Positions 9,077 to 27,110 of a stretch of 33,974 bases of DNA are shown here, piece by piece. Position 1 is the first letter of the stretch; every line of letters begins with the position of its first letter. The DNA comes from Anaerolineae bacterium (GTDB lineage Bacteria > Chloroflexota > Anaerolineae > Aggregatilineales > J027), in NCBI GenBank assembly GCA_019913005.1, contig JAIOHL010000218.1:1-33974 (forward strand), read 5' to 3'. A model generated the notes under the pieces. That model saw only the letters and a program-made list of their open reading frames with translations, was not told the DNA's origin and did not search any database. The position numbers were made by a program, and so were the translations under genes.

Positions 9077-9129
9077 GAGGGATAAAAAGTTGCCTATAGC
9101 AAAGCGTGCAAGCAGCTAGAGGCAACTCA

Positions 9130-9852
9130 ATGATCCAAGAAAGTATAACGCATCACTGTGCCAGATGTGGCAGCGAAGACTTGGTACGAAATGGGCATGA
9201 CTACAAAGCGGCACAAAAATACCATTGTAAGGCATGTGGACGCTATGGAACCCTCAAGGCTCAAACGGGCTATCCGATCTCGCTCCAGCAACAAGTCCAA
9301 CGCGCGGTACTGGAGCGCATGAGTTTGCGAGGGATTGAACGAGTCTTTGGCCTTTCGCGGCGCACGGTGGCGCGGTGGATTGTCCGGTGGGGGCAAGCCT
9401 TAGCCCCTTTGGCAACAACCCTCGTGCCTGCCCAAAGTGCGGAGGTCTTGGAATTGGATGAGGTCTGGTCATTTGTGGGCAAGAAAGACGAGGATTGGTG
9501 GTTATGGGTCGCTCTGTGTCGCCGCACCCGGCAGATTGTCGCTTATTATTGGGGTAAACGCACGTGGGCCAGTTGGGTGCATCTGTGGCAACGCCTTCCC
9601 ACCGATTATGCGTGGCAGGCGTCGGTGAGCGATTTTTGGGATGCCTATGCCCTTGTTTTTGATGCCCAGCGCCATCGCTGTGTCGGCAAGGCAACCGGCG
9701 AAACGGCCCATGTCGAACGTTGGTTTAATACCTTACGCCAACGCCTGTCCCGTCTCACCCGCAAGACGCTCGCCTTCTCCAAATCCAAAACCTATCTCGA
9801 ATGGGTTACGGCCCTTTTCATTCATGACTATAATCGAACATGTATCAGTTAA
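9130..9852 (+). CDS. IS1-family transposase (single ORF)
   Basis: A 240-residue DDE transposase of the single-frame IS1 type, equivalent to InsA plus InsB. The N-terminal zinc finger has C10, C13, C33 and C36. A helix-turn-helix follows (RGIERVFGLSRRTVARWI). The catalytic region begins at LDEVWSFVG (D110) and has a second acidic site in SDFWDAY. The glutamate lies in ETAHVERWFNTLRQR (about E196), the typical IS1 ending. The ATG at 9130 has AGAGG about nine bases upstream; the frame is open to an ATG at 9106, which adds eight residues without a ribosome site. The stop lies just inside the right inverted repeat. All key residues appear intact, so the enzyme could be active. Confidence 0.92.
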   Translation: MIQESITHHCARCGSEDLVRNGHDYKAAQKYHCKACGRYGTLKAQTGYPISLQQQVQRAVLERMSLRGIERVFGLSRRTVARWIVRWGQALAPLATTLVPAQSAEVLELDEVWSFVGKKDEDWWLWVALCRRTRQIVAYYWGKRTWASWVHLWQRLPTDYAWQASVSDFWDAYALVFDAQRHRCVGKATGETAHVERWFNTLRQRLSRLTRKTLAFSKSKTYLEWVTALFIHDYNRTCIS

Positions 9853-11554: not shown

Positions 11555-13837
11555 CTAATTGCTTGATTGAAGCGTATTCTCCGCAAGGCGCAGTTCTAAC
11601 CAAGCTTGCAAAAAGGCTAGTGTAGACTCGGCTCCTTGATTCTCGTTCACACGGTCAGGATGGAGTCCATCACGGCAGCCACCTGTCGAGGCATCATAAA
11701 CAGGGAGTTTCAAGTCGTTACGTCCAAGAAACCACTCGAAAGCCCGCTGCGCTTCTCGGTTCCAGCATGGGTCTCCTGTGATACGGTAGGCTTCTAAACA
11801 GGCTGAGATCATACTTTGTGATTCAATAGGCTGCTGATCGAAACGCGCTTGCTCCGCACCTTGCTTATAGAATCCATTTGATCCGATAGGAATAAAATGC
11901 TCGCCAACTTTTTTTGATTGCTGTAGATCAGCCAGCCAACTGAGTGATTTTAACCCGACTGTAGTCATCATTTCGTTGGGTATTCCCTGACCACAGATAA
12001 GCATGGCCTGTGGCAGAACCGCGTTGCAATAGGTTAGCTTGTCTTCATACCAGCACCATGTATCGGAGGCATTGTGTTCATACAAGGCCAGCAAACGCCC
12101 TGCCAATTCATCGCGCATATGACGAATGAGGCTATCTCCTTGAAACCGCCGTAGATACTCATGAATGCCGATCAGAGTAAAAGCCCATGCACGCGGGCTG
12201 GTGGATGTGAGTACAGTAGGTAATGCCTGTTCAAACAGCCAGCTTGCGATGTTGGTTAGTCCGGGTATGTTAGAGCGCCCGATCACCATTCCCAGCGACC
12301 ACACGGCACGACCATGACTATCTTCCGAGCCACTTTTTTCTAACCAATTGCGCTGATAATCCATAAAGTTACGAAAGCTTTTGGTCTCACTATTGAAGGC
12401 ATAGGCGATGAAGGCGAGGTAACGGGTCGCAAAAGCGAAGGATTGTTCGTTGTCTAGCTCCAACTCTGTTAAATAGGTACTCACGATTAAGGCTCGGGCA
12501 TTGTCATCGATGCTGTAACCCTCGCGATAGTTCGGTATCGTGAAGCGGGCGTGCTGTAATATACCCGTATCGTCTGTCATGTGATGCAGATGATCGAGTT
12601 TTAGAGGAGGGAGTTCTCCGGGGCGCTTATCCAGTGGCTTGACCGCAAATGGCGAGGCAATAAAGTTGCGACGCTCTGTACGGGCGCGTTCAAAACTCTC
12701 CATATAGCGACTTGCTACTTGAGACCAGATCATGGCTCGCCCGAACAAATAGGCTTGCTTACGCATCGCATGACGCTTCGATTCGTTATCTAACAAGTGG
12801 ATTACCTGCCCTGCTAATGCCACCGGATCATGGAAGGGAATCAAGACGCCGCGTTCGTCGGCAAGCATTTCCTCCGCATACCAATAAGGAGTTGAAATGA
12901 CGGCTTTACCTGCCCCCAATGTATAGGCCAGCGTTCCTGAGGTGATCTGGGCGGCGTTATGATAGGGTGTGATATAAATGTCCGTTGCACCAATAAACTC
13001 CTTGAGTTCTTCTAAAGTGACAAAACGGTTATAAAAGATCACATGGCTTTCTACACCCTTATCACGTGCCAGACGCTGCAAAGATAGACGATATGTTTCA
13101 CCTTCCTGTCGTATTACATGTGGATGGGTTGCGCCCAGAATCAGATACATGACATTCGGATAGTGTTCGACAATCTGTGGAAGGGCCGTAATAACATCCT
13201 CAAGACCTTTGCTAGAGGACAGCAAGCCAAAACTCAATAGAACCATTTTCCCGTCCACGCCAAACACATCTTTGTGAAAGCTGGGGTCTACAAAAGGGAC
13301 ATCCGGAATACCATGTGGGATCATATCAATCTTCTCCGGCAATACCCCATAGATTTCCTGCAAAAAATCCACGCCGCGCTTGCTCATAACCACGACACGA
13401 TCTGACAGGGCAGCGATTTCTACCAAGACCCGCCGTTGATCTGGGTTTGGATTCTGTAGAATGGTGTGAAAAGTGGTAACAACTGGCATACGGAGTTCAC
13501 GTAAGAGAGTTAGGATGTGGCTACCTGCTGACCCACCGAAAATGCCATACTCGTGTTGAAGACACACCAGATCAACATTGTTGGTATTGAGAAAATCGGC
13601 GGCGCGGCGATAGGAGTCAATATCTTTCTCCGTTAGTTCAAAACGAACACGCGGCGGATAGGTGTAGCCTGCCTCCGTGTCATTGACGGGCAAAGCAATA
13701 CACGTTGTTTTGTCATAACCCGCTGCGATAGCCTCGCACAAATCAGTTGTGAAGGTGGCAATCCCACATTGACGTGGTAAATAGTTACCAATAAATCCAA
13801 TACGGTTAATGGCTGTATTGGTCATGTTATGTTCCAT
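11555..13837 (-). CDS. GT4 glycosyltransferase fused to (alpha/alpha)-type domain
   Basis: A 760-residue two-part protein. Residues 1 to about 390 are a GT-B glycosyltransferase of the GT4 type. The first domain opens IGFIGNYLPRQCGIATFTTD and has QHEYGIFGG. The second contains IPHGIPDV, LLSFGLLSSSKGLEDVITAL and the donor-binding stretch ITPYHNAAQITSGTLAYTLG. Residues from about 410 to 750 form a helical domain with motifs typical of (alpha/alpha)6 toroids (REGYSIDDNARALI, SEDSHGRAVWSLG, WCWYEDKLTYCNAVLPQAM). Whether it is a hydrolase/phosphorylase or a scaffold is unknown. The ATG at 13837 follows AAGGGG by nine bases. Its partner is the downstream GH130 gene; together they suggest synthesis and turnover of a mannose-containing glycan. 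Confidence 0.85.
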   Translation of the reverse strand: MEHNMTNTAINRIGFIGNYLPRQCGIATFTTDLCEAIAAGYDKTTCIALPVNDTEAGYTYPPRVRFELTEKDIDSYRRAADFLNTNNVDLVCLQHEYGIFGGSAGSHILTLLRELRMPVVTTFHTILQNPNPDQRRVLVEIAALSDRVVVMSKRGVDFLQEIYGVLPEKIDMIPHGIPDVPFVDPSFHKDVFGVDGKMVLLSFGLLSSSKGLEDVITALPQIVEHYPNVMYLILGATHPHVIRQEGETYRLSLQRLARDKGVESHVIFYNRFVTLEELKEFIGATDIYITPYHNAAQITSGTLAYTLGAGKAVISTPYWYAEEMLADERGVLIPFHDPVALAGQVIHLLDNESKRHAMRKQAYLFGRAMIWSQVASRYMESFERARTERRNFIASPFAVKPLDKRPGELPPLKLDHLHHMTDDTGILQHARFTIPNYREGYSIDDNARALIVSTYLTELELDNEQSFAFATRYLAFIAYAFNSETKSFRNFMDYQRNWLEKSGSEDSHGRAVWSLGMVIGRSNIPGLTNIASWLFEQALPTVLTSTSPRAWAFTLIGIHEYLRRFQGDSLIRHMRDELAGRLLALYEHNASDTWCWYEDKLTYCNAVLPQAMLICGQGIPNEMMTTVGLKSLSWLADLQQSKKVGEHFIPIGSNGFYKQGAEQARFDQQPIESQSMISACLEAYRITGDPCWNREAQRAFEWFLGRNDLKLPVYDASTGGCRDGLHPDRVNENQGAESTLAFLQAWLELRLAENTLQSSN

Positions 13838-14724: not shown

Positions 14725-15051
14725 TTAGCCGGGAATGGCTGGGACTGGTACGGCTTGTAGGAATCCAAGAAAAACCAACTCCTCATCTAGGGCACGCACG
14801 GTATGCGGTTCATTTGGCTCAAAAGTGAGGAGTGTATTGGGTCCAAATTCTTGCTCCGGCTCATTATGGGAACCGAACATGCCGCGTCCTTTTAATATCA
14901 CCACATAAAGGGGTGAGTGCGGCGCACGATGGCTCTGACCGGGTTTGAGCATCCAGCGCAAGATACGTCCTTCTTTGTCAACCAAAAGTGGTTGAGCTAA
15001 GGGGTCTGACTCATGAAATTCAAGTTGTTCTAGTAGGTGATTAACCTTCAT
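14725..15051 (-). CDS. Small cupin-fold protein
   Basis: A 108-residue single-domain cupin. A first half with PGQSHRAPHSPLYVVILKG gives the metal-binding histidines and the G-rich turn. The second half has FGPNTLLTFEPNEPHTVRAL with the final histidine. Small cupins like this often act as sugar-binding or regulatory proteins, sometimes as isomerases; no substrate can be inferred. The ribosome site is poor, so the start at 15051 is chosen mainly because it gives a standard length. It is followed by the YtxH-like gene. Confidence 0.8.
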   Translation of the reverse strand: MKVNHLLEQLEFHESDPLAQPLLVDKEGRILRWMLKPGQSHRAPHSPLYVVILKGRGMFGSHNEPEQEFGPNTLLTFEPNEPHTVRALDEELVFLGFLQAVPVPAIPG

Positions 15052-15093
15052 ACGAACACACGCTTTCTTTATTCATTCTGTCGCAAACTGTGC

Positions 15094-15474
15094 CTACACC
15101 TTTAGGTTGGCAGCCCACGCATCAATTTGTTTGTCGGCCTCTTTCTTGGCGATGCTGTAGCGCTTTTGAAGTAAACTCGCCAAGGCCTTACGATTGCCAT
15201 CGATTTGGGCAAGTTCATCATCGGTCAATTGACCCCATCGTTTTTTGGCTTCGCCGCTGAATTGTCTCCATTCGCCAGAGATGTGTTCCCATTTGTTTTT
15301 CATAGTCATTTCCCTTGATTCATTAATTGAACTTTGTGTGGCAGATACCGTTAATTGTCGTCTTCGACCCGTCTGATATACGAGTAACCCCGATAAGATC
15401 AACAGGAAGACTGGCAACCCAATGCGTAACATGAAGAGCCCTATTGTGGTTAAGATTGTTCCGCTGTCTGACAT
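15094..15474 (-). CDS. CsbD-family protein with N-terminal membrane segment
   Basis: This 126-residue frame joins two parts. Residues 1-40 are a membrane segment of the kind found in separate short Chloroflexota proteins (TTIGLFMLRIGLPVFLLIL). Residues 58-126 are a complete CsbD domain (MKNKWEHISGEWRQFSGEAK, then GQLTDDELAQIDGNR). CsbD proteins are general-stress proteins and normally stand alone at about 65 residues. The upstream ATG at 15474 has a GGAG site seven bases away. The internal ATG at 15303 has an AAGGG site seven bases away. Either one fused protein or two products from one frame is possible. The linker between the parts (residues 41-57) looks like former intergenic sequence. Confidence 0.75.
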   Translation of the reverse strand: MSDSGTILTTIGLFMLRIGLPVFLLILSGLLVYQTGRRRQLTVSATQSSINESREMTMKNKWEHISGEWRQFSGEAKKRWGQLTDDELAQIDGNRKALASLLQKRYSIAKKEADKQIDAWAANLKV

Positions 15475-15620
15475 TTCACATCTCCATTAAGGGCGTTTAG
15501 CCTTTCACGTACATCCGTGCCATTTTGTAGTGGCACTATTAGAATGACTGCCCCACTCAAAATTGGGTTTTGCAGCATGGTGATTGACCAGTGCGATGCC
15601 ATGTTTTTTCTCAATATCGG

Positions 15621-15869
15621 TTAGGGTTGGCCTGTAGCACCCAAACGTCGGTAGTGGTTGCTGATCTCTTCCATGTCTGCCCAGACAATTTTGCCGATCA
15701 CCATAAGATCGTCAGTTGGGGCATTGAATTTTAGGTCATGTGCTCCATATTCCAGTTCGACCTCAAGCCCTCGCCGAAATTGTTCGACTGTGATTTTTGC
15801 CCAGTCCACCCCGAGTCGCGTTCCTACTGAACCTGCTTCCTCAAGGGAGATTTGTCGTTGCTTGCCCAT
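15621..15869 (-). CDS. DUF5661-family small protein
   Basis: An 82-residue soluble protein that matches the DUF5661 pattern: an SLEEAGSVGTRLGVDW start, then FRRGLEVELEYGAHD, and a final helix MEEISNHYRRL. The function is unknown; the family is common in small stress-gene neighbourhoods. A GAGG ribosome site lies about eight bases upstream of the ATG, and the gene begins 17 bases after the release-factor-like gene, so the two are probably co-transcribed. Confidence 0.75.
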   Translation of the reverse strand: MGKQRQISLEEAGSVGTRLGVDWAKITVEQFRRGLEVELEYGAHDLKFNAPTDDLMVIGKIVWADMEEISNHYRRLGATGQP

Positions 15870-15886
15870 ATGAGCCTCTTGTTTTT

Positions 15887-16309
15887 CTACTTCTGTTGGG
15901 CTGTTCCACCTGAACTGTGTGGCGATTCCCGAAAGTATTGGCGAACTTTCCTTTTGATTTGCCCATCCGTCATTTTGCCTGTTGTTTCGAGACTGACAAT
16001 AGTGCCACCTTGTTCTTGAACCGCTAAATATTTTTGAAGTTCACCCTTTGCCTCGCTGGGGCCAAAGATGAGAACCGCATCCGAGTCGCTTAGACATGCG
16101 GCGACATCCTTATAGTATTTGCTGAGATCATCATCCAAACGACGATCTTCCTTATAGCGTCGGTCTTCATGCGAGTCGTCTTGCAAGGCTGACTCTTGGA
16201 CATGTTCTTCGACACCAGAAGTAATCCGTTTTAGCTGTTCCTTTTTATCGGTAAGAATCACAATGGTGGCCTGTTTGTGGTCAATCCACAAACCCACTTC
16301 TTTTTTCAT
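15887..16309 (-). CDS. Release-factor-like (baeRF/host-attachment type) protein
   Basis: A 140-residue protein that opens VGLWIDHKQATIVIL and has an alpha/beta C-terminal half: a predicted strand AVLIFGPSEAKGEL, then GGTIVSLETTGKMTDGQIKRKV. This resembles the C-terminal, eRF1 domain-3-like module of bacterial release-factor-like proteins, often annotated as translational machinery or host-attachment proteins. The middle (about 35-70) is highly charged and likely disordered. There is no GGQ motif, so peptide release is not expected. The start has AGGAG seven bases upstream. Family assignment is moderate; a hypothetical protein is the cautious reading. Confidence 0.6.
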   Translation of the reverse strand: MKKEVGLWIDHKQATIVILTDKKEQLKRITSGVEEHVQESALQDDSHEDRRYKEDRRLDDDLSKYYKDVAACLSDSDAVLIFGPSEAKGELQKYLAVQEQGGTIVSLETTGKMTDGQIKRKVRQYFRESPHSSGGTAQQK

Positions 16310-16628
16310 CTATTGCTCCTGCGCAAGCCAATTTCAGACTATTGCGCGATATATCCACCGGTCCACCAGATACGCGCTTCCGGTAACGAACGATGCACCT
16401 TCTGAACACAGTCACAGCACTAAATCACCGACTCCTTAAGGCTTGCACACCGGAACTTGCACCAGTTACCATTGCGATCTTTCTACGAATCCATTCATTA
16501 ATCGCCTTGTATTGAATTCATTGCACGTTTTTAGGCTTTCATCAGTTATTCTGAGCAGGCCGATCCGGTTATTTTTCCCGGAATCGACACCGAGGTTATT
16601 TTCTCATTTATCGTTGCTCTAATATCGC
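16310..16628. other. 319-bp gap without a gene
   Basis: No plausible coding frame was seen on either strand. On the minus strand, after the SPFH gene, a GATtCCGG...CCGGATC hairpin with one bulged base lies near 16563-16586 but has no U-tract. The promoter for the release-factor-like gene should lie in the part near 16310-16400; no convincing boxes were found. Confidence 0.5.
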
Positions 16629-17480
16629 TTACCTTGCGTTTTTTACTTCGTGTCCATTGTTGCCATCGGACACACTCACGGGAAAACTGCCTAGCAGCAG
16701 AGTAGGGCTGATCCCATGCTCAGTAATAACAATCTTGGAGTTTTCCCGCAGAGACGTCTCGATCATCTCTAGTTGTTTAAGTGTTTGGGCATTGCCTACG
16801 AAGTATTGTTGAGCGGCTTCGTTGACCAAGCGGATGGCTTCGGCTTTACCTTGGGCGACTTGGATCACCGCTTCACGTTCGCCCTCAGCGCGTTGGATGA
16901 TTGCCAGCTTATGCTGTTCGGCAGCCTCAAACTCGCCAGTTGCCAGCAATCGCATGGAACGACGTTCTTGTTCGGCGGTTTTCTGTTTGTGCATTGCCTT
17001 CTTAATGTCATCCGGTGGGTCAATCAAGCGAATTTCCACCTTACTGACGGTCAGTCCCCATTCGACGGCAAAGGTGTTGAGGATACGTTGTAGATTAGTG
17101 GCGATTTTCTCGCGTGCAACGAGGCTCTCGTCTAAGGATAGCTCCCCAAACTCTTGGCGTAGGTTCGTCATTGCTAACTGGATAATCGCCCGCTTCCAAT
17201 CGTCAATATTGTAGAAGGTTCGTTTAATCCCTTCTTCATCGGCAGTGGGACGTACCCACATAATGCCATCCACCAAGATTTCAACGTTATCCTTGGTGAT
17301 TACTGGTTGCGGCTCAATATCCATCGTATGTTCGCGGATATCACGAACGCGCGTGATATTGATCAGTGGGATTTGAAGCCCCAGCCCGGGCATGATAAAG
17401 TGACTGTACTTCCCCAGCGTTTCCTGAATGCCACGTTCGTAAGGGCGCAGGGTAAAGATTGGTCCATATATTGTTCTCAT
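16629..17480 (-). CDS. SPFH/band-7 (slipin-like) protein
   Basis: A 283-residue prohibitin-homology protein. It has the SPFH start IYGPIFTLRPYERGIQETLGK, a HFIMPGLGLQIPL stretch, then TKDNVEILVDGIMWVR. A long charged coiled-coil follows (about 180-240: MHKQKTAEQERRSMRLLATG, then EGEREAVIQVAQGKAEA) before a C-terminal hydrophobic-tipped segment. Slipins organise membrane microdomains. Unlike most slipins, no membrane-spanning helix precedes the SPFH domain here, so membrane contact would be peripheral or through MPGLGL. No NfeD partner is adjacent. GGAGG lies six bases upstream of the ATG at 17480, so truncation by a wrong start is unlikely. Confidence 0.88.
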   Translation of the reverse strand: MRTIYGPIFTLRPYERGIQETLGKYSHFIMPGLGLQIPLINITRVRDIREHTMDIEPQPVITKDNVEILVDGIMWVRPTADEEGIKRTFYNIDDWKRAIIQLAMTNLRQEFGELSLDESLVAREKIATNLQRILNTFAVEWGLTVSKVEIRLIDPPDDIKKAMHKQKTAEQERRSMRLLATGEFEAAEQHKLAIIQRAEGEREAVIQVAQGKAEAIRLVNEAAQQYFVGNAQTLKQLEMIETSLRENSKIVITEHGISPTLLLGSFPVSVSDGNNGHEVKNAR

Positions 17481-17565
17481 AACATCCTCCGCAGGTGTTT
17501 TCGAATATGCCTAAGAATCGGGTGTGAAGGGTTTATACGGCATTCGCGTAAGCCATGACCTGCAA

Positions 17566-17650
17566 CCTCACTCCCCAACCCCCTCGATACTTGTGAAGAG
17601 GGGGAGTAGAAGAGGCTTTTGAAACACTACGAGGAAGGGTTTGGGATAGG
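17566..17650. repeat. REP-like palindromic unit
   Basis: A C-rich arm (CTCCCCAACCCCCTC) is followed 12 bases later by GAGGGGG, forming a perfect 7-bp stem (17579-17585 with 17598-17604). About 45 bases on, GAGGAAGGGTTTGGGATAGG is an imperfect mirror of the whole left arm. This nested C-rich/G-rich layout resembles the dispersed intergenic palindromes common in Chloroflexota and cyanobacteria. Confidence 0.5.
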
Positions 17651-17684
17651 ATTCGCCGTCTGCCGAATTCCGTATTGTTCCTCT

Positions 17685-18281
17685 TTATGGGTTTGAGGGT
17701 GGTTCAACTGCTGGCTTTCCACGATTGTCGCCATAGGCCCGCATGTCCGTTTCCTCTTCGCCAGTGTAGGGTTTAGAGTGGAGTTTACTTGCAGGTGTTC
17801 TGCCAAGCAGCTTATATAACCACCGGTGACTAGTCACGTAGGATATAAAGAACAGGGCAACGAACACAAACACCGCCAGTATCCCGATTTTTGTGCCAAT
17901 TTTGCTGGCGTGTACCGTTGCCTCAAGACGAGTGTTGGTATCTGCCACAAACTCCACATCATACGTACTCACTACCGTAAACTCACTAACGCCGGGTGGT
18001 AGAGCAAAATCAAACGAATAGGCGGTTGAACTAGTATCCCCTCTGGTCGCAAGCCCAGAAACCCCTTGAATATCGCTTGAGACTGTGAACAAACCTCCTG
18101 CACCAACTAACTGGACAGGCACAGCTTCGCGGGAGGGATTGGTCATCGTGACGGCACCACTGCCAACCTTAAAATTGAGATTGGTTCCGCTATATGATGT
18201 GGAACGAATCGAATTCGCTGTCCACGCCACCGCGCCGATAATGAAGATGCAGGCGACGATGACTTTCCAATTGATTTTCAT
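17685..18281 (-). CDS. Bitopic membrane protein, unknown function
   Basis: A 198-residue protein with an N-terminal signal-anchor (about 6-24: WKVIVACIFIIGAVAWTA) and a second membrane segment (about 130-152: IGILAVFVFVALFFISYV). The region between is polar, with alternating strands that suggest a small beta domain outside the membrane. The C-terminal 45 residues are charged and face the cytoplasm. No family was recognised. The ATG follows GGGGTAAACGAAA, an acceptable ribosome site. The gene lies between the REP-like unit and the first GlsB-like gene. Confidence 0.65.
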   Translation of the reverse strand: MKINWKVIVACIFIIGAVAWTANSIRSTSYSGTNLNFKVGSGAVTMTNPSREAVPVQLVGAGGLFTVSSDIQGVSGLATRGDTSSTAYSFDFALPPGVSEFTVVSTYDVEFVADTNTRLEATVHASKIGTKIGILAVFVFVALFFISYVTSHRWLYKLLGRTPASKLHSKPYTGEEETDMRAYGDNRGKPAVEPPSNP

Positions 18282-18416
18282 TTTCGTTTACCCCGGTTAT
18301 CACCGCTCCAAACATTGAATACTTCGGAAAAACAGATCGCTACTTACAAATGCAGAAGGTCGCAAATCATCATTTGCATTGGTTATCGCCGTGCTTAACA
18401 GGTGAAGTAACCTGAT

Positions 18417-18755
18417 TCATTGGCCATCGATGCCCTCTTTAGTTCGATTTCCTCGAAAAGCGTGTATCTCGGGATTACGCAATTTGCCGGGTGGCAATCC
18501 CGGACGCCCATTTACGGCACGGATCACCAATAGCAACGCTATAGCTCCAACAAAAGCGACAAAGACGCTCCAAATATTGAGGCCCGTTACCCCAGATACG
18601 CCCAAAATGTTGAATAGAAGGCCACCAGCTAAAGCACCCAAGATGCCGATAACTGTATCGCCTGCTATACCCATGCGACGGGGAATCACTTTGCTAGCCA
18701 ACCAGCCCGCGATTAGCCCAATAATTAACCAAGCAAGCAAATGCATCGGTTCCAT
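18417..18755 (-). CDS. GlsB/YeaQ/YmgE-family membrane protein, copy A
   Basis: A 112-residue transglycosylase-associated (GlsB/YeaQ/YmgE) stress membrane protein. The family core is clear: three membrane segments starting MEPMHLLAWLIIGLIAGWLA, then SKVIP, GDTVIGILGALAGG and SVFVAFVGAIALLLVI. It carries about 30 extra charged residues at the C-terminus compared with copy B. The function is unknown; the name comes from stress-induced paralogues. The ATG at 18755 follows AAAAGG by five bases; nine upstream codons are rejected. Copy B at 21723-21995 is about three quarters identical over the first 80 residues by eye, and the upstream DNA is shared as well. Confidence 0.9.
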   Translation of the reverse strand: MEPMHLLAWLIIGLIAGWLASKVIPRRMGIAGDTVIGILGALAGGLLFNILGVSGVTGLNIWSVFVAFVGAIALLLVIRAVNGRPGLPPGKLRNPEIHAFRGNRTKEGIDGQ

Positions 18756-18811
18756 AACGCCTTTTGCCTTTCGTATTGCCAATTCAAACGGTAGTGGACG
18801 ATTGAGAATAG

Positions 18812-19019
18812 GTGTCTTGGGAAGTTTTGGCTTGATGCGCCAGAGGTTTGAAGCTTACTTAAGACTAGGAAGGTTCAACTGGCATCACCTACCCTGACTG
18901 GCCGGAAGTGACTGTAATTAGCCGATTTAGGAGAAGATTCCTCCTGATATTTACAGTATAAGCCTTAATCTTCAGGCCGACGCCCTTCTCTGGGGTGATT
19001 AGTTTCTCATCCTGTAGAA
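18812..19019 (-). promoter_or_regulatory. Duplicated upstream leader/promoter, copy A
   Basis: About 208 bases upstream of copy A align along their full length with 22054-22258 upstream of copy B. Identity is about three quarters by eye, rising to 40 of 41 bases at 18979-19019. On the minus strand it contains GCTTATACTGT, with a TATACT -10-like box (18955-18960). Ten bases further on is a near-palindrome (18929-18945), in which the two arms pair through one G-U. No good -35 box was found. The inferred transcript would have a leader of about 190 bases. Bases 19020-19207, the rest of this gene-free stretch, show nothing further. Confidence 0.6.
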
Positions 19020-19207
19020 TGATTTTCTGATGATTCAGAGCTTTGCAGAGGATCGGTCACCAAGTTCGCCACCACTGTCCGGGTATTGGACGATTCATCG
19101 GGAGCGCGTTGCACTTGCATATCTCTATTGCCCTTGCCCCACATCGAGACCCGAATGCTCTCCGTCACTTTAGCTATCTCAACGGCGATGTAGAGACATA
19201 CCGAGTT

Positions 19208-19975
19208 TCAGACAGGCTGTGCGTATTTTGCGACTAACCTAAGTAAGTGCTTGATATTGAACGGCTTAGAAAGCACATCAACAACAAAAGTGGGTAGGGT
19301 ATCCGGCGTAATATCTGTTTCGGCACTCAGAATAATGACCGGGGAATGCGGCCTTAGTTGCCGATCATAGGCACTTAAAAATTCAAATCCATTCATGATC
19401 GGCATAGCAAGATCTAATAAAATCAAGCAATATTCAGTACGAAATACACTATCGAGTGCAGCCAAACCATTATAGGCAGTTGCAAATGGATAGCCTTCCA
19501 TACTTAGAACGGTTGTGATGGCATCCCGGAGATGTTCTGTATCTTCGACCACTAAAATGGGGAGTGCCTGATCGCTAGAAAAGATAGCGCCTGCCTGATT
19601 TGCCAGTGTTAAGGTTTTTTGAACTAGCCCCAAGAGATTATTGACATCGAATGGCTTGAGGACGACATTGATGTAGCGGGTTGATAGATAGCCCCGGATT
19701 TCTACCGACAAATCTGTTATGGTAGTGGTGATTAGGATAGGGATGTTGGCAGTCGTATCTTCCATTTTGAGAATCTGTAGAAGTTCCCACCCCCTTCCCC
19801 CGTCTTGGTGATTGAAATCAAGGATGATAATGTCGGGATTGTGTTGTTTTAACGCCGCTAGATTGATATGGTCATACGAGTAGCTAAAGACTTGCCAATC
19901 TCGTCTTTTTAGACACAAGGTAAACAAATCTCGCATGGTATCATCGTTATCAATAACCACAATATTCGCGTCCAT
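19208..19975 (-). CDS. Double-receiver response regulator without output domain
   Basis: A 255-residue protein made of two CheY-like receiver domains. The first (about 5-125) has phospho-acceptor D53 in IIILDFNHQD and the KPF motif VLKPF. The second (about 138-254) has the acidic pair in VVEDTEHL, D188 in LILLDLAMP, and SKPF. There is no DNA-binding or enzymatic domain, so it probably relays phosphate or signals by protein contact. The ATG at 19975 is preceded by AGAGGAACT; twenty upstream codons of the open frame are rejected. The adjacent single-receiver protein closely matches its first receiver in the WELLQILKMED region, so the two probably arose by duplication. The partner kinase is unknown; the GAF kinase at 22348 is the nearest. 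Confidence 0.85.
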   Translation of the reverse strand: MDANIVVIDNDDTMRDLFTLCLKRRDWQVFSYSYDHINLAALKQHNPDIIILDFNHQDGGRGWELLQILKMEDTTANIPILITTTITDLSVEIRGYLSTRYINVVLKPFDVNNLLGLVQKTLTLANQAGAIFSSDQALPILVVEDTEHLRDAITTVLSMEGYPFATAYNGLAALDSVFRTEYCLILLDLAMPIMNGFEFLSAYDRQLRPHSPVIILSAETDITPDTLPTFVVDVLSKPFNIKHLLRLVAKYAQPV

Positions 19976-20065
19976 AGTTCCTCTTTTCCCAAGACGAACG
20001 AACCCCATGCCGAGATCGGATTCCGGTCCGTACAAAAAGACGCTATCCAGTTGGATGCTTGTACT

Positions 20066-20500
20066 TTACTTCTTGTTAGACCCGTCAGATTTAGGTAGCT
20101 TTGGCGCTTGATAACTACCAATCTCGTTACCTTGCAAGGCAGAATGGACTGCATTGACTAAATCACGACTTTCAAAGGGTTTACGTAAAATTGTTACCTG
20201 CTTTGTTGCGAGATAGCCAGCTATTTCGTGGGCCAGTTGCACCGCAGTGGTACAGATAAGGACAGGAACCGCAGCCGTCGAATCTTCCATCTTGAGCATT
20301 TGCAGAAATTCCCAACCCACCCCTTCGCGCCCGACATAATAGTCAAGAATGATGAGGTTTGGTTGTATTCTCCGCACTTCGCGCAAGTCTGAGTTTAAGA
20401 ACAGTTGCAGAAACACCTCATAGTCCTCTGCCGCTAGGATTTTCTGAAATAAGGCTAAAATGTCATCTGAATTGTTGATGACCATAATCCGTGTTGTCAT
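20066..20500 (-). CDS. Single-domain response regulator, altered acidic pocket
   Basis: A 144-residue receiver-only protein. Phospho-acceptor D53 lies in LIILDYYVG and the conserved lysine in RKPF. The usual paired acids near residue 9-10 read N9-N10 (VINNSDD), so magnesium binding may be weakened, although D12-D13 follow shortly. The C-terminal 25 residues are polar and lysine-rich (LPKSDGSNKK). The start at 20500 is an ATG with GAGGA about ten bases upstream; an in-frame GTG at 20524 is less likely. It is 90 bases ahead of the double-receiver gene, transcribed in the same direction, and its WEFLQMLKMED segment is nearly the same as in that protein. Confidence 0.83.
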   Translation of the reverse strand: MTTRIMVINNSDDILALFQKILAAEDYEVFLQLFLNSDLREVRRIQPNLIILDYYVGREGVGWEFLQMLKMEDSTAAVPVLICTTAVQLAHEIAGYLATKQVTILRKPFESRDLVNAVHSALQGNEIGSYQAPKLPKSDGSNKK

Positions 20501-20612
20501 ATTGCATCGTCCTCTGCTTAACACCCATCAAATCAATTTTGGCCGGGGTGTTGCGGCACACGACGGCAAAAGAGATAGGGAAGGCCGCAAAACCTGTTCC
20601 TTTGCATTACTT

Positions 20613-21635
20613 TCAAACCCATTTGCGCCAGCGAAAAACCATGAGGGTCCCGACAATCGAAGCGCCCATCGTTAATACAACGAGCATAAACATCGCAAAT
20701 CCGTTGATCGGTAGTCGCAGGGATTGATCTATCGCAAGAAAATTCGAATCGAACAAACCCAAGAAAAACGTAAAGGGCAGAAACACCATCGAGATGATGG
20801 TCAGGCGATTGATCGAATCGCCCATCTTGCGGGCCTGTTGATTGGCGATGATATCTAGCACATTGCCCGTGAGGTCGCGCTGGGTATCAATCACATCATA
20901 GATACCCAATAGACGTTTGTAGAGATGCCGGAACAAATCTCGAATATCATCATTGTTGGAGAGACGCTGTTCGCCCGTGAGATTTGAAAGGACTTCGCGC
21001 TGGGGGGCGATCATCTGCCGTAGCCCGATCAGGTGTTGTTTAATACGGTACACCGTCGTTTGGGCTTGTTTGTTGCCCGTGTCAGCCAAGAGCTTCTCTT
21101 CCAATTGGTTAAGCTGATTGCTGATGCGATCCAACAGTGGGTAATAGGTATCAATCACGTGTTGGGCGGTAAGGTAGAGGAAATATCCAATGCCACGCTG
21201 CCAAGAATCGAGATTTTGGGCCACTCGATTGTAGGCTACCTCCACCGCTGTAGCATCGTCTTGCCGCACGGTCACAAAAAAATATTCACCCAACAGACAG
21301 TGAATTTCTTTCCCGACAATCGTGTCGCTTTGTAGGGAGGGTTGGAAAAGGGAAAGGAACAGATAACTAGGATAAACCAGCAGCGTAGGGCGATGATCTT
21401 CGCGTAACAAGTCTTCCACCACGTTGGGTGACAGATGCAGCAATCTGGCTAACCACTGAATTTCCTGAATATTGGGCGTCACGATGTCGATCCACAAGGT
21501 GCAACCATCGGTAAAACACTTTTCAAGGTTTTCCGGCGTCAGATTGCGCCGCAAGACAGGCTCGATAGCACTGCTTTCAGGTTGTACTTCTGCCGAAGTA
21601 TCAGGCTTTGCTGCAACCACCAATGACCGTATCAT
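20613..21635 (-). CDS. CorA-like transporter lacking the GMN motif
   Basis: A 340-residue member of the CorA/ZntB divalent-cation transporter family. It has a large cytoplasmic N-terminal domain (about 1-270, with DGCTLWIDIVTPN and VVEDLLREDHRPTLLVYP), a long stalk helix with QARKMGDSINRLTIISMVF, and two C-terminal membrane helices ending in a basic tail. The GMN loop that normally follows the first helix reads L-G-L-F-D-S-N-F here (DSN at 20742-20750), so G and M are both replaced. The helix before it (LPFTFFLGLF) and the second helix are otherwise normal. Selectivity for magnesium is therefore doubtful. The start is uncertain between 21635 and 21650; neither has a good ribosome site. Confidence 0.85.
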   Translation of the reverse strand: MIRSLVVAAKPDTSAEVQPESSAIEPVLRRNLTPENLEKCFTDGCTLWIDIVTPNIQEIQWLARLLHLSPNVVEDLLREDHRPTLLVYPSYLFLSLFQPSLQSDTIVGKEIHCLLGEYFFVTVRQDDATAVEVAYNRVAQNLDSWQRGIGYFLYLTAQHVIDTYYPLLDRISNQLNQLEEKLLADTGNKQAQTTVYRIKQHLIGLRQMIAPQREVLSNLTGEQRLSNNDDIRDLFRHLYKRLLGIYDVIDTQRDLTGNVLDIIANQQARKMGDSINRLTIISMVFLPFTFFLGLFDSNFLAIDQSLRLPINGFAMFMLVVLTMGASIVGTLMVFRWRKWV

Positions 21636-21722
21636 AAGTTTACATACCATTCATAAAAGCTGTTTTTTAGGGAGACGGACAAATAGGTTTGCCCGCCTCG
21701 TGACAACTGGTATGCCCCGAAT

Positions 21723-21995
21723 TTACCGGGTCGAAAGCCCTTTGCTGTTGCTGAAGGCACGGATCAAGAACAGCAGCACGACTGCCCCAACGAAGGCAAC
21801 AAAGATGCTCCAAATATTGAGTCCGGTGGTACCGGATTCGCCAAATTCCTCAAATAGGAAGCCACCGGCCAAGGCGCCTAGCATCCCGATAACAGTGTCA
21901 CCCACGATGCCGAAGCGACTTGGAATGACTTTGCTAGCCAACCAGCCTGCGATGAGTCCAACAACGATCCATGCGAGTAATCCCATAGGTTCCAT
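21723..21995 (-). CDS. GlsB/YeaQ/YmgE-family membrane protein, copy B
   Basis: A 90-residue paralogue of the protein at 18417-18755. It has the same three-segment core (MEPMGLLAWIVVGLIAGWLA, SKVIP, GDTVIGMLGALAGG, SIFVAFVGAVVLLFLI) and the usual short family tail. An AGAG site lies a few bases before the ATG. Its upstream 260 bases are homologous to those of copy A, so the gene was duplicated with its control region. It sits between the CorA-like gene, transcribed the same way, and the divergent GAF kinase gene. Confidence 0.9.
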   Translation of the reverse strand: MEPMGLLAWIVVGLIAGWLASKVIPSRFGIVGDTVIGMLGALAGGFLFEEFGESGTTGLNIWSIFVAFVGAVVLLFLIRAFSNSKGLSTR

Positions 21996-22053
21996 AATGC
22001 TCTTTACCTTTCATATTGACATGATCAAAACGGGAATGATTGATCGAAAAAGT

Positions 22054-22258
22054 GTGTCTTGGGGTTTAGCTGGATGAGCCAGAGACTTGAAGCTTACTTA
22101 AGACCAGCAAGATTCAACGGGCATCACCGAGCCTGCATTGGTGGGAATGATGGTGACTAGCCGATGCGGGAGAAGTCTTCTCCTAATAATGACAGTATAA
22201 GCGCTGATTTTCATCCAGACGCCCTTCTTTGGGGTGATTAGTTTCTCATCCTGTAGAA
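22054..22258 (-). promoter_or_regulatory. Duplicated upstream leader/promoter, copy B
   Basis: The counterpart of 18812-19019. On the minus strand it has the same GCTTATACTGT (-10-like TATACT at 22194-22199). Ten bases beyond is a perfect 15-base palindrome, GGAGAAG-A-CTTCTCC (22169-22183), which would lie at or just after the transcription start. The outer 41 bases (22218-22258) differ from copy A at one position only, although they are far from the gene, so they are probably a binding site. The same gap (21996-22347) must also hold the promoter of the divergent kinase gene. Confidence 0.6.
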
Positions 22259-22347
22259 CGAATTTTTTGTGATTTGTTGATTTAGAGGGATGATTAAAAA
22301 CATCAGAATGCTCAGCCCATAAAGACATATGGGAATGAGGTCAGGCA

Positions 22348-23733
22348 ATGAGTGAACATGACGAAATACTGGCAGCGCTGATCGAAGCCAATCGAACGCT
22401 AACCAGTCAAATAGCCGAGTGTGAAACTACCGAGATCAACCTCCGCAAAGCAAATGCTGACTTGGGTGCCCAATTGAAGACCCAACTGGAAGAAGTGGCT
22501 AGGCTGAAGCGACTGTTGCAAGAGCAAATCGAGGAACATAAACGAATACAAGCCCGTGAACTGGAACAACGTATCTTGAAAGAAGCCTTGCAAGAGACAG
22601 TGGCGGCCATGAGCAACACGCTCGATCTAGACAAAGTATTGGATCATATTCTCGATACGGTGAAACGGGTCACACCGTATGATGGTGCCAATGTGCTGTT
22701 TATTGAGTCCGATCTCGTGCATGTGGTACGTCAGCGTGGCTACCATGAAAAAGGAGTGGAGGAAGATTGGTTAAAACAGCCTATCCCACTCGCCCGACTG
22801 GCTGCCTTGCAGCATATGATGGACATAGGCCAACCGCTGGCGACACCCAATACGAGCAATTCATCAATAGGGTTTAGTTTTCCGGGTTCTAACTGGATCA
22901 ATTCAAATGTCATTGCGCCTATCCGCTTAAAAGACAAAACTTTAGGGTTTCTTTCCCTCGATAGTGCTACGCCCGGTTTTTTCACACAAATACACGCAGA
23001 ACAGTTGCAAGTCTTTGCTGATCAAGCCGCCATCGCCATCCAAAATGCGCGACTTTATGACCGGGCAAAACGGGCGGCGGTGTTGGAAGAGCGTAGCCGC
23101 CTAGCCAATGAATTGCATGATACCATTTCCCAGACCCTCTGGTCAGTGAGCCTGATTGCAGAGCGATTGCCGGTGCTTTGGGAGGTTAATCGTGAGGAAG
23201 GGAAGCGCAGCCTTGCCAGTTTGCATGAATTAGCCCAAGGTGCTTTGGCCGAAATGCGTTCGCTGCTGTTAGAGTTGCGGCCTTCGGTACTGATGGATGC
23301 TAAACTGGGGGATTTGATCCATCAACTGGCTCATATCTTTGCGACGCGCACCGGCCTTATTTTTTCAGTCACACTGCACAATCAAGACCCCCTCCCGCCC
23401 CACGTCCAAGTTGTGTTATATCGGGTAGTCCAAGAATGTATCAACAACATTACCCGCCATGCTTCCGCCAGCCATGTAGAGATCAACTTCAACAGCCATG
23501 CCGGGCAGGTTGAACTGACAATTCAGGATAACGGACGCGGTTTCGACCCAACTAATATTACGCCGGGGCATCTAGGCCTCAGTATTATGCGGGATCGCGT
23601 TCAGAGTATTGGCGCAACCCTTGAGACAACCAGTGCGAAGATGGAAGGAACCCACATCCGCGTCGTGTGGACAGCATCGCTCGAAGAGAAAATGTTAGCA
23701 CAGAATGGGTCAGGTGAGATTAATGGTTATTGA
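22348..23733 (+). CDS. Cytosolic GAF-domain sensor histidine kinase
   Basis: A 461-residue soluble kinase. An N-terminal coiled coil (about 1-85, rich in E, Q and L) leads to a GAF domain (about 95-235, with NTLDLDKVLDHILDTV and the closing FADQAAIAIQNARLYD). A HisKA_3 domain follows with the phospho-accepting H257 in LANELHDTISQTLW and the LLLELRPSVL box, and then an HATPase_c domain (VVQECINNITRHA, DNGRGFDP, GHLGLSIMRDR). It has no membrane segment, so it senses an intracellular signal, possibly a bound small molecule or cofactor. The ribosome site GAGG lies about eight bases upstream. It overlaps the regulator gene by 11 bases and diverges from GlsB copy B. Confidence 0.93.
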   Translation: MSEHDEILAALIEANRTLTSQIAECETTEINLRKANADLGAQLKTQLEEVARLKRLLQEQIEEHKRIQARELEQRILKEALQETVAAMSNTLDLDKVLDHILDTVKRVTPYDGANVLFIESDLVHVVRQRGYHEKGVEEDWLKQPIPLARLAALQHMMDIGQPLATPNTSNSSIGFSFPGSNWINSNVIAPIRLKDKTLGFLSLDSATPGFFTQIHAEQLQVFADQAAIAIQNARLYDRAKRAAVLEERSRLANELHDTISQTLWSVSLIAERLPVLWEVNREEGKRSLASLHELAQGALAEMRSLLLELRPSVLMDAKLGDLIHQLAHIFATRTGLIFSVTLHNQDPLPPHVQVVLYRVVQECINNITRHASASHVEINFNSHAGQVELTIQDNGRGFDPTNITPGHLGLSIMRDRVQSIGATLETTSAKMEGTHIRVVWTASLEEKMLAQNGSGEINGY

Positions 23734-24382
23734 AAATCCGATCCGAGTCATGATTGTCGACGATCATGCCATGCTGCGCAAAGGCTTGGCTGTCTTTATC
23801 ATGAGTTATGACGATCTTAAACTTGTTGGGGAAGCGGCCAATGGGGAAGAAGCTTTAGCCTTATGTGCCGAGATACACCCCGATATTGTGTTGATGGATT
23901 TGATGATGCCGATTATGGATGGAATCAATGCAACGCGCCATATCCACCGCGAGTACCCCGACATACAGGTTATTGTGCTGACCAGTTTTGGGGAAGAGAT
24001 GCTGATCAAGGATGTATTAGAGGCCGGGGCGATTAGTTACCTTTTTAAGAAGGTTTCGGCGGACGATTTAGCAAAAGCCATCCGTGCTGCGAAAGATGGT
24101 TTTTCGACTTTTGCACCGGAAGTCACCAAGATTCTCGTGCAGTCCATTAATCAACCACATCCAGCCTTTCAGGATCTGACTGAACGTGAACGAGATGTGC
24201 TGGCTTTGATGGTCAAAGGGATGGGAAATAATGAGATTGCCGAGGCGCTGGTGATTAGTCTTTCTACCGCAAAATCCCATGTCGGGAGTATTCTTGCCAA
24301 GCTAGGGGCGACCAGCCGTATTGAAGTAATTACGATGGTTTTGGAACATAATTTCCATTTAGGGGCTTTCTATGTCAAATAG
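23723..24382 (+). CDS. NarL/FixJ-family response regulator
   Basis: A 219-residue regulator paired with the preceding GAF kinase. The receiver domain has the acidic residues D13/D14, phospho-acceptor D59 in IVLMDLMMP and the lysine of LFKKVS. The LuxR-type helix-turn-helix is at the C-terminus (LTERERDVLALMVKG, then LVISLSTAKSHVGSILAKLG). The ATG at 23723 follows AGGTGAG by five bases and overlaps the end of the kinase frame, which indicates translational coupling; an earlier in-frame start at 23705 is less likely. It belongs to the same subfamily as the regulator at 310-996. Targets are not visible; the divergent GlsB copy B leader is the nearest candidate. Confidence 0.93.
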   Translation: MVIENPIRVMIVDDHAMLRKGLAVFIMSYDDLKLVGEAANGEEALALCAEIHPDIVLMDLMMPIMDGINATRHIHREYPDIQVIVLTSFGEEMLIKDVLEAGAISYLFKKVSADDLAKAIRAAKDGFSTFAPEVTKILVQSINQPHPAFQDLTERERDVLALMVKGMGNNEIAEALVISLSTAKSHVGSILAKLGATSRIEVITMVLEHNFHLGAFYVK

Positions 24383-24541
24383 CGGATTGACGTGTGTTTC
24401 CTCTCGCTATTGAGAGATTCTTGGGAAATCGTGACCGTAAAAGTGCTTACCCTGCTTCACTCTCAACCCTGATAAGTTCACTCTGTAGGTCAAGTACTTG
24501 TTTAGCCATCGGCAGCATCGACAGACCATGATTATCGCGAG

Positions 24542-24867: not shown

Positions 24868-25590
24868 ATGGCAGAACAAATCCGTCAATTAGAGCTATCA
24901 GCGGAAGCAAAACAAGCTCTGCAAGATCGCTACCAAGCCACGAATAACCGCCGCTGGCAGGAGCGAATTCAGGCGGTCTTGCTCAAGGGACAAGGGCTGA
25001 CATTGGAAGCGATCAGTGAGGTCATTCCCTATAGTGTTAAGTGGCTCAGTTATTGGTTGCGGGAATATGGGGAGAAGGGCTTGGAGGGGATCTGCGTGTG
25101 GGAATACCAAGGTAGCCATGCCCATTTAAGGGATGAACAACAGCAGCACCTGAAAAGCCGGGTCAGCCAAACGGAGTATCGTCGTGTACAAGATGTGGTG
25201 GCATGGGTGAAGGCGGAATGGGGGATTGAGTATATTGAGGACGGGATGCGGGAAATGCTGCATAATCTAGGCTTTAGTTACCAAAAAGGACGCATCATGC
25301 CGGGCAAAGCCGATGGGGAAGCCCAAGTCCTTTTTTTGAAGGAGACTTTTGAACCCATGAAAGCCACTTTAGAGGCGGAAGATCGCTATTATTTTGTGGA
25401 TGCCACCCATACCCCAGTGATCGGCTATCAATGGGCTTTGAAAGGACAACGCCCCCAAGTCTTGAGCAATAGTGGTCGCCAACGCCTGAACATTTTAGGC
25501 GCCTACAACTCCTGTCAGCAGGCCTATGTGGGTTTTGACAGCACGGATAACATCAATGCCGAGAGCATGATCCTCCTGTACCTCAGCTAA
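24868..25590 (+). pseudogene. IS630-family transposase, 3' part missing
   Basis: A 240-residue frame with the IS630 N-terminal half. Two helix-turn-helix parts (ERIQAVLLKGQGLTLEAISE and the winged segment to REMLHNLGFSYQKGR) are followed by the first catalytic aspartate in RYYFVDATHTP. The reading ends soon after INAESMILLYL. The second aspartate (normally in a LDNA-like motif) and the glutamate (in the YSPDLNPIE region) are absent, so the protein cannot be active. GAGGAAGG seven bases before the ATG is a good ribosome site. The break at about 25585 coincides with the start of the DUF3987 reading frame. Terminal repeats were not found. Confidence 0.82.
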
Positions 25591-25610: not shown

Positions 25611-27017
25611 ATGCTCCAGTCACAGCCTGAGCCAACTGCCACCCCGCAACTTATAACTTTACCTGTTGCTGAGGGGGAGGATATGCCACCACATGAGCCG
25701 CTAGAACCACCTTTAGCGGATTTGAAACTGCCGAATTGGTTACAGCAGTATCTGGATTGGGCAGGTCGCACCGGCAACCAAACCCCGATGGACTTCCATT
25801 TGGCGGCAGGGTTGTGGTTGCTGTCGGTGGCAGTTGGTCGTCGGCTGTTTGGTGAAGCGCCTTGGGGCATCAAGATTTATACCAATTTGTATTTGATGCT
25901 CATTGCGGATACGACCTATTATCGCAAGTCCACTGCCTATAAACTCGCCGAACAGATTGCCCGTGAAGCGATTCCACACATGCTCATGCCGACGCCCGGT
26001 TCACCCGAACGCTTTCAAGAGGCATTGGCGGGTCGTATGCCAGCCAATTTCGATAAACTCACCAAACCGCAGCAGGAACGCCTGACCAAAGCCCAGCCTT
26101 TTGCTGCACAACGTGGACTGCTCAAAGATGAAGTGGCGGGTTTGTTTGGGGCGATTAACCGCAAGGAGTACATGGTGGGCATGAAGGATCTACTCATGGA
26201 ACTCTACGATTGTCCGGATTATTCCGACAAAGATACCCAAGCCGGACTGACAGTGGTGGAGAACGCCGCCTTGTCCATTTTGGGTGTGACCACCCCGGCA
26301 GGTTTATCCGTTGCCGTTTCGGATGCGGACTGGGCCAATGGCTTGCTGATTCGTTTTGCCCTACTCACTCCTGAGCTAAATTATGAGGAGCGCCCGGCAC
26401 TAAAAGCTTTTCAGCCACCTCCGGCAGAATTAGCCGAAGGATTGCGCCGCTTGCATGACAGACTGCCGCAGCCACAGATGACGGAGATGGGGTTAGCCGC
26501 ACCCGGTTCACTCAAGTTGAATGTGCAATGCTGGGAGGCATGTCAGGTCTACAGCCAGACACTCCGCGAAATGTGTAATCCTCGTAGAGACATCGAGTTA
26601 GATGAGCGACTCAAAGGTGTTTATGGCCGGATGCACGTGCAAGCTTTCAAACTGGCGGCTCTGCTTGCGGCCTTGGATTGGTTGGATACGAAAGAACCTG
26701 TCCCCACGGTCACCGAACAACACTGGATCAGTGGCAAAACAATCGCCGAGATGTGGCGGGGCAGTGCTGCCCACCTGCTACATCAAATGGATCGTAGTGG
26801 GGAAGCACAACATGAACATCTCTTGCAGCAGCGCATTTTAGAAATGTTTAGACGGGCTGGTCAGCAGGGTGAGAAGCTCTACGTGGTCTACAAAAACCTG
26901 CATGTTCCAGCCCGGCAGGCTCGCCAAGCGACGGAAGAACTAGTTAGGGCAGGTATCCTGATCCCGATGCGCTTAGGCCAAGCCGAAGGCTATCTCCACA
27001 AAGACTTTGTGCAATAG
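25611..27017 (+). CDS. DUF3987-family primase/helicase-like protein
   Basis: A 468-residue protein of the DUF3987 family, found on plasmids, phages and integrative elements as a helicase-like partner of primase domains. The core runs from LPNWLQQYLDWAG to about residue 400. The nucleotide-binding loop after YTNLYLMLI is ADTTYYRKST (99-108); the usual glycines of a Walker A motif are missing but K-S-T is kept. RGLLKDEVAGLFG and a C-terminal winged-helix-like tail follow. No N-terminal primase/polymerase domain is present. The frame is open upstream into the IS630 remnant (VPQLTSGKSAP precedes the ATG), and there is no ribosome site, so the 5' end was probably lost. The 64-base palindrome begins directly after its TAG. 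Confidence 0.8.
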   Translation: MLQSQPEPTATPQLITLPVAEGEDMPPHEPLEPPLADLKLPNWLQQYLDWAGRTGNQTPMDFHLAAGLWLLSVAVGRRLFGEAPWGIKIYTNLYLMLIADTTYYRKSTAYKLAEQIAREAIPHMLMPTPGSPERFQEALAGRMPANFDKLTKPQQERLTKAQPFAAQRGLLKDEVAGLFGAINRKEYMVGMKDLLMELYDCPDYSDKDTQAGLTVVENAALSILGVTTPAGLSVAVSDADWANGLLIRFALLTPELNYEERPALKAFQPPPAELAEGLRRLHDRLPQPQMTEMGLAAPGSLKLNVQCWEACQVYSQTLREMCNPRRDIELDERLKGVYGRMHVQAFKLAALLAALDWLDTKEPVPTVTEQHWISGKTIAEMWRGSAAHLLHQMDRSGEAQHEHLLQQRILEMFRRAGQQGEKLYVVYKNLHVPARQARQATEELVRAGILIPMRLGQAEGYLHKDFVQ

Positions 27018-27081
27018 GTTTCGCAATGAATGCGAAAGGTGCGAAATGCGACTTTCGCACCTTTCGCATTCATTGCGAAAC
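27018..27081. repeat. Perfect 64-base nested palindrome
   Basis: Two 29-base arms are exact reverse complements around a 6-base loop (TGCGAC). Each arm contains its own smaller palindrome (TTTCGCA, five bases, TGCGAAA). The heptamer TGCGAAA occurs at 27031, 27040 and 27074, and its complement TTTCGCA at 27019, 27053 and 27062. It starts one base after the DUF3987 stop and ends 29 bases before the stop of the convergent giant gene. It could end transcription from both sides, but no U-tract follows either side. The repeated heptamers also fit a protein-binding or replication-linked site. Confidence 0.9.
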
Positions 27082-27110
27082 TTAGCTGGAGTATTTGCGC
27101 TTGACCCGAA

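Follow-up and report, generated by a model that had tools for sequence, protein, structure and literature searches.

A putative NarL-type promoter module and a conserved structured RNA in the duplicated leaders of GlsB-like genes from an Anaerolineae bacterium

RNA leaders can preside over heterogeneous stress or envelope genes, as the c-di-AMP riboswitch (ydaO-yuaA) and RNA thermometers do. For the response regulator NarL, 7-2-7 operators (inverted heptamers separated by 2 bp) are standard, and one study records activation from position -67.5 in an engineered ogt promoter (PMC7419079). Chlorobi-RRM (RF01697) and Chloroflexi-1 (RF01698) are leader RNAs catalogued through comparative genomics, according to the survey that lists them (PMC2864571). 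Here we compare with these systems a locus on contig JAIOHL010000218.1 of an Anaerolineae bacterium (assembly GCA_019913005.1, 7.65 Mb in 365 contigs). The 33,974 nucleotides analyzed, referred to below as the window, contain two GlsB-like genes, A and B, with duplicated leaders. Each leader consists of an outer part, module 1, with the features of a NarL-type promoter, and a gene-proximal part, module 2, which is best read as a new cis-regulatory RNA family in the 5' untranslated regions (5'-UTRs) of an envelope/general-stress regulon.

The leaders of genes A and B can be aligned over 210 nt with no gap and are 79% identical, in agreement with a preliminary description of this DNA that had proposed a duplication of a GlsB-like gene together with a conserved leader of about 200 bases. 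Because the two genes differ at 48 of 85 third codon positions, the leaders are conserved beyond what neutral copying and drift would leave. A coding explanation was rejected, as substitutions between the leaders fall 13, 10 and 16 by phase, compared with 19, 9 and 48 in the genes. The promoter-like box noted earlier, GCTTATACTGT, is common to both copies. The palindrome, which had been placed ten bases beyond this box, begins 8 bases after it and reads GGAGGAATCTTCTCC in copy A (18930-18944, minus strand, directly after the -10 element) and GGAGAAGACTTCTCC in copy B (22169-22183, minus strand, also after the -10; GGAGAAG-A-CTTCTCC). Further upstream, the outer block is identical at 40 of 41 positions (18979-19019 and 22218-22258, minus strand), exactly as had been reported. 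The possibility raised at the time, that this block is an ordinary genome-wide repeat, can be set aside: a 28-mer from it occurs exactly twice in the assembly with up to three mismatches (reversed control, 0), and an inner 17-mer at the same tolerance is at control level (17 + 9 versus 11 + 12) except for two exact copies. The leader is therefore not a dispersed repeat. When 101 related genomes were searched directly with the leader DNA, its own genome alone was returned, so that a profile model was required; plasmids gave no match, and scanning viral contigs for a 16-mer returned two, both without the module 2 RNA.

A sequence-only model built from the two window leaders was run on 154 genomes of the order and matched 16 places in 11 of them. 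Since three of these matches covered the outer part only (L050, L052 and L056; L, G and C denote our handles for loci, genomes and contigs) and most of the others the inner part only, the leader is, judged by this distribution, composed of two modules with separate histories. The preliminary description had offered a regulator-binding site or a structured leader as alternatives; both appear to be present, as separate parts, and the structure lies neither at the palindrome nor at the outer block but at 18811-18896 in copy A and 22053-22135 in copy B (minus strand). This gene-proximal part recurs most widely elsewhere and holds the covarying helices. Covariation, suggested as a check on the two leaders, was found across relatives in module 2. 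Nor do the counts across species favour the outer block as the most significant conserved element: the RNA has 37 copies versus 17 strong module 1 sites (E ≤ 0.001).

Module 2, about 86 nt long, folds into two helices, with a probable pseudoknot between GUCU and AGAC. Helix P1 pairs GUUUGAUGA-U-GC with GC-UCAUCAAAC, helix P2 pairs UGAAUCUUGCU with AGCAAGAUUCA, and the loop GUCUUA has its probable partner in the AGAC directly past P1. We modeled the two helices in a covariance model, R2, from a seed of 14 sequences, 13 from the first search and one tandem neighbour in L048 found by eye; the model scores copies A and B at 63.4 and 71.1 bits. Covariation was analyzed in 38 hits (37 in the order plus G207) in an alignment fitted to the model. 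In this set, 88.8% of cells were paired and 16 of 22 pairs had both-sided changes; none of 500 shuffles reached any of five covariation measures, and sliding the helix partner lowered the paired cells to 32-44%. Compensatory changes in both helices were also found among the 24 non-seed hits, which were still selected by a structure-bearing model; aligned without structure, they showed 85.3% paired cells and both-sided changes in 13 of 20 pairs, with four measures reached by 0/500 shuffles and the fifth by 1/500. In the seed itself (14 sequences), both sides had changed in 10 of 22 pairs, and four measures were reached by 0-1 of 500 shuffles. On this comparative evidence, module 2 is a conserved structured RNA.

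At E ≤ 0.01, R2 identified 37 copies in 20 of the 154 genomes of the order. Each of these genomes has between one and four copies, some arranged in tandem, with four in the 5.2-kb contig G130:C1030. Four congeners had no copy, laxer filters included. Among 396 genomes spread over the class, six had a match at E ≤ 0.001, namely five from the order and the marginal G207 outside it (27.8 bits), and among 400 genomes spread over the phylum only the source genome was matched; these searches outside the order scored only 10-11 candidates per genome, and absence there is not proof. One of the genomes with a match, G019, is the Anaerolineae metagenome-assembled genome (MAG) JAHDLB01 (L007 lies within L112). 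Comparison of Rfam 15 with window positions 15000-24500 and 11 related loci at permissive E-values gave no family near threshold at module 2. The sole Rfam match to reach threshold was a SAM riboswitch near a module 2 copy in a related genome (L054:1034-1137, 94.8 bits). Among the open-licence papers listed on RNA motifs, riboswitches and stress in Chloroflexota and Anaerolineae, none dealt with such an RNA; a survey of 104 candidate RNAs was checked by its Chloroflexi names. As far as Rfam 15 and these papers show, module 2 is undescribed.

Module 2 is followed on the same strand by a member of a recurrent gene family in 32 of the 38 hits. These genes encode the unnamed membrane protein of window 17685-18281 (15 hits), GlsB (5), the receiver protein of window 20066-20524 (3), the glycosyltransferase of window 11555-13837 (3), a KTSC-like small protein named by resemblance without a Pfam match (3), CBS proteins (2) and a Band7/CsbD cluster (1); the CBS and KTSC-like queries were drawn from these loci, and each of these two counts includes one self match. 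Within 700 nt downstream, a recurrent-family gene was found on the same strand in 31/38 hits and on the opposite strand in none, while the same limit upstream gave four same-strand genes and one divergent gene. The distance from RNA to start codon is 10-250 nt, mostly 55-171 nt (28 assigned cases). Of the 154 genomes, 21 encode the membrane-protein family and 14 of these 21 have module 2; the RNA lies no more than 600 nt upstream of 14 of its 17 best genes (E ≤ 1e-24) and of none of the 8 lower-scoring genes. No module 2 was seen at the GlsB homologs of G052 (L014) and of a Pirellulales MAG (L008), whose identity is 77-83%, and this weakens any proposal of a tie between the RNA and GlsB itself. 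The L008 contig, filed under Pirellulales, carries a GlsB that is 77% identical to copy B, a case of transfer or misbinning.

Module 2 stands behind promoters of several kinds. The best upstream promoter has the form TTTAC[AG]-N17-(-10-like) in 13 of the 38 hits; in about six others, judged by eye, a CCAACGYAATTACAAC-like box precedes the -10 instead, a sequence that another regulator may bind. By eye, L103, L105, L111, L115 and L120 share such a second box. Module 1 precedes module 2 in window copies A and B and in L108. In four hits (L106:4010, L109, L119 and L111:5448), the range searched showed no -10-like box; L106:4010 and L111:5448 lie between genes, right after a lysine-rich small frame that itself follows another RNA copy. 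Lysine-rich small frames of about 40-50 amino acids separate the RNA from the following gene or RNA copy at L103:6427, L106:3783-4010 and L111:5233-5448. With one RNA under differing promoters, a shared function is argued at the RNA level. Moreover, 24 of 34 leaders carry a purine-rich motif resembling GGAG after the -10, compared with 22% of 1208 background windows that overlap and were not selected after -10 boxes (binomial p = 2e-9, assuming independence). Judged against these related leaders, the window palindrome is a local version of this motif.

Module 1, from the outer block to the -10, contains the inverted repeat TCRTYCT-NN-AGGATGA, located 61-63 bases ahead of the -10. Copy A (18947-19022, minus strand) comprises the dyad at 19007-19022, the outer block, a spacer and the -10 TATACT at 18955-18960, as placed by alignment and dyad spacing; copy B (22185-22261, minus strand) has its dyad at 22246-22261 and its TATACT at 22194-22199. 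R3, a sequence model of module 1 that scores the copies at 65.7 and 62.8 bits, was run on the 154 genomes of the order and matched 31 places in 22 genomes at E ≤ 0.05 and 17 places at E ≤ 0.001, 8 of the latter being the model's own sources. Eight further matches had a locus, and three of these lie before GlsB and one before a YflT-like stress gene. Scanning the retrieved loci for TCRTYCT-NN-RGRAYGA and a -10, each with at most one mismatch, yielded nine distinct dyads. Seven show the 7-2-7 operator arrangement, with inverted heptamers, a 2-bp gap and an activating distance from the -10, which lies 61-63 bases from the dyad start; the remaining two are found upstream of kinase genes, in G098 and G077, at distances of about 55-70 and 95-110 nt. 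If the usual -12 to -7 hexamer is assumed, the dyad centre would fall near -66. An alternative reading of the outer block as an extracytoplasmic function (ECF)-type -35/-10 pair was rejected by eye because the spacing is too long.

In the window and in G111:C80, G098:C7, G077:C106 and G080:C394, though not in every module 1 locus examined, kinase or regulator genes that could be cognate adjoin the module. In G111:C80, a kinase-regulator pair with a module 1 site on either side precedes YflT-like, GlsB, GlsB, YtxH-like and CorA genes; the gene set of G098:C7 is the same. Because the dyad recurs at a fixed spacing from the -10 next to NarL-type kinase/regulator genes, the neighbouring NarL-type regulator (23705-24382, plus strand) is the best, albeit unproven, candidate for the binder of module 1. 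This is the protein that the preliminary description had put forward, at 23723-24382.

Based on these data, we consider it reasonably probable that the locus is controlled in two stages, by a NarL-type promoter and a cis-acting 5'-UTR RNA. A signal would reach the GAF/HisKA_3 kinase, which would phosphorylate the NarL-type regulator; the regulator would then probably bind the 7-2-7 dyad and activate transcription from a putative promoter that lacks a good -35 box and has an extra GGATG-like half site near -35. Two neighbouring operons, with extents deduced from gene order, would be transcribed: GlsB B-CorA-receivers, and GlsB A-membrane protein, perhaps onward. Module 2, lying in each 5'-UTR, would act in cis on the following gene through translation or mRNA stability. 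It would also belong to a wider system, in which, across one order of Chloroflexota-type bacteria, the RNA precedes numerous unrelated envelope/general-stress genes with promoters of several kinds. A bolder proposal, that module 2 represents a new class of global-signal RNA sensor, either a riboswitch or an RNA read by a protein, and serves as a common, promoter-independent post-transcriptional switch for the whole regulon, is possible but doubtful.

Several observations weigh against the two-stage reading. Copies A and B of the window are themselves among the weakest folders, with 14 and 16 of the 22 model pairs formed. One of the five covariation measures is unexceptional on the seed alignment (115/500 shuffles), and the GUCU/AGAC pairing, complete with all four pairs in 28/38 hits, is near-invariant, with one compensatory cell, so that covariation says little about it. 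Single-sequence folding of the 14 cores gave z scores from -3.70 to +1.34, mostly unremarkable, and RNAalifold on a ragged alignment returned P2 only, with 7 pairs. Single-sequence folding of the whole leaders equals that of shuffles (z = -0.35 and -0.23); it was rejected as proof of structure, the earlier argument for structure from the palindrome is correspondingly weak, and the fold becomes visible only by comparison with relatives. Pairing between the purine motif and the pyrimidine-rich internal strand of the RNA was no better for own than for permuted pairs (P = 0.13), and pairing between the purine motif and the 3' tail of the RNA gave no signal (P = 0.83). The ribosome-binding region, compared with three RNA segments (P = 0.70, 0.79 and 0.34), revealed no expression-platform partner, and its sequestration by module 2 was rejected for want of a pairing signal. 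Six of the 38 hits have no recognised family downstream (L097, L093, L114, L125, L121 and one contig end); in L121, the gene that follows encodes an RRM RNA-binding protein. As for module 1, four of the eight further matches are not located before a recognised stress gene, and its heptamer differs from the E. coli NarL consensus.

How module 2 might work is a question on which two readings compete. That module 2 is a leader that binds a protein or responds to temperature, or that it stabilises the mRNA in concert with the 5' purine-rich motif, is plausible if short of probable: the target set is of the stress type, the purine motif is enriched after the -10, and one copy precedes the RRM protein gene, but the motif and the RNA show no covariation with each other, the overlapping background windows were drawn without reference to -10 boxes, and the RRM case is single. 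We regard a small-molecule or ion riboswitch, whose aptamer would be formed by the internal loop and pseudoknot, as unlikely. The compact fold with its conserved loops and probable pairing of loop and 3' tail would suit such a device, as would the tandem use in one locus with the four copies of G130:C1030; however, the target genes have no common pathway, Rfam holds nothing similar, and no partner was found either in the ribosome sites of the assigned leaders or among terminators, which were scanned for in the window only and appear there at shuffle level.

Readings that deny the leaders a regulatory role fare worse. In the GlsB protein tree, A falls outside a group (support 0.85) that unites B with homologs of other families, indicating that the gene pair is old or has spread between lineages. 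Module 2 is nonetheless more alike between A and B (68/83) than between B and G019 (53/80), the closest relative with the leader, though the B protein groups with G019; local conversion would give this pattern. The greater likeness would be explained equally by constraint that a common promoter-RNA combination places on both copies or by local leader conversion; a conversion tract in the leader alone is possible as an added process. That the likeness is a mere trace of gene duplication or conversion, without regulatory function, is very improbable given the divergence at third codon positions, and for module 2 it is contradicted by RNA copies with compensatory changes before unrelated genes in 20 genomes. 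A dispersed mobile repeat of the REP or MITE type is scarcely credible: up to four copies per genome and some tandem arrangements could recall one, but the copy number is low, the element is limited to one order, and it sits just before recurrent families on the same strand in 31/38 cases and on the opposite strand in none.

Both GlsB-like proteins (A, 18417-18755; B, 21723-21995, starting 57 nt past module 2 copy B; minus strand) contain a Transgly_assoc domain (PF04226) and exceed its gathering score of 25.3 with 35 and 47.8 bits, and both are below the NCBIfam cut-off of PRK10457. Pfam bears out that two receiver proteins and a CorA-family protein lie between the two copies. On the minus strand, the CorA-family transporter (20613-21650) is downstream of GlsB B and is followed by a receiver protein (20066-20524), homologs of which are directly preceded by module 2 elsewhere, and a double-receiver protein (19208-20035); the membrane protein (17685-18281, minus strand) has homologs elsewhere and no Pfam or NCBIfam match. 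On the plus strand, a GAF and HisKA_3 histidine kinase of the NarX/LiaS type (22348-23733) precedes the candidate regulator, of the NarL/FixJ type, which has Response_reg and GerE domains (Pfam) and matches NarL-type models. In NCBIfam, the pair scores NarX/LiaS- and NarL/MadR-like, below every equivalog cut-off shown. Reading of the translations indicated transposase-like frames on either side of the stress-gene island (9106-9852 and 24868-25590). A long near-perfect inverted repeat at 27000-27096 is matched weakly by R2 on either strand (16.1 and 10.5 bits) and is probably an unrelated hairpin. Beyond it, a reading frame of 2157 residues (27111-33584) shows TPR-like repeats and P-loop motifs and appears STAND-like by eye.

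If the proposed role of module 2 is correct, a structured RNA common to a large number of unrelated stress genes would define a regulon at the RNA level and constitute an unstudied layer of stress control; among the papers listed, none concerned a two-component general stress response in Anaerolineae. Experiments could start directly from the conserved fold, the list of targets and the promoter module, and the neighbourhood of module 2 offers a functional clue to the unnamed membrane-protein family, its commonest neighbour.

With respect to known systems, module 1 resembles the NarL-type promoters of E. coli (yeaR-yoaG and ogt), in which inverted heptamers 2 bp apart lie upstream of a weak promoter, and the window shares with those systems a NarL/FixJ-type regulator and a HisKA_3 kinase. 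It differs from them in its heptamer (TCRTYCT/AGGATGA), in preceding stress-type rather than nitrate genes, and in the structured RNA that follows. Module 2 is similar in target breadth to the c-di-AMP riboswitch and RNA thermometers and has a different fold. Like Chlorobi-RRM and Chloroflexi-1, it is a lineage-limited structured RNA found by covariation before genes; unlike them, it has no match in Rfam 15, those two families included. The GlsB proteins of the window share the Transgly_assoc domain with the GlsB/YeaQ/YmgE membrane stress proteins and are unremarkable; the novelty lies in their leaders.

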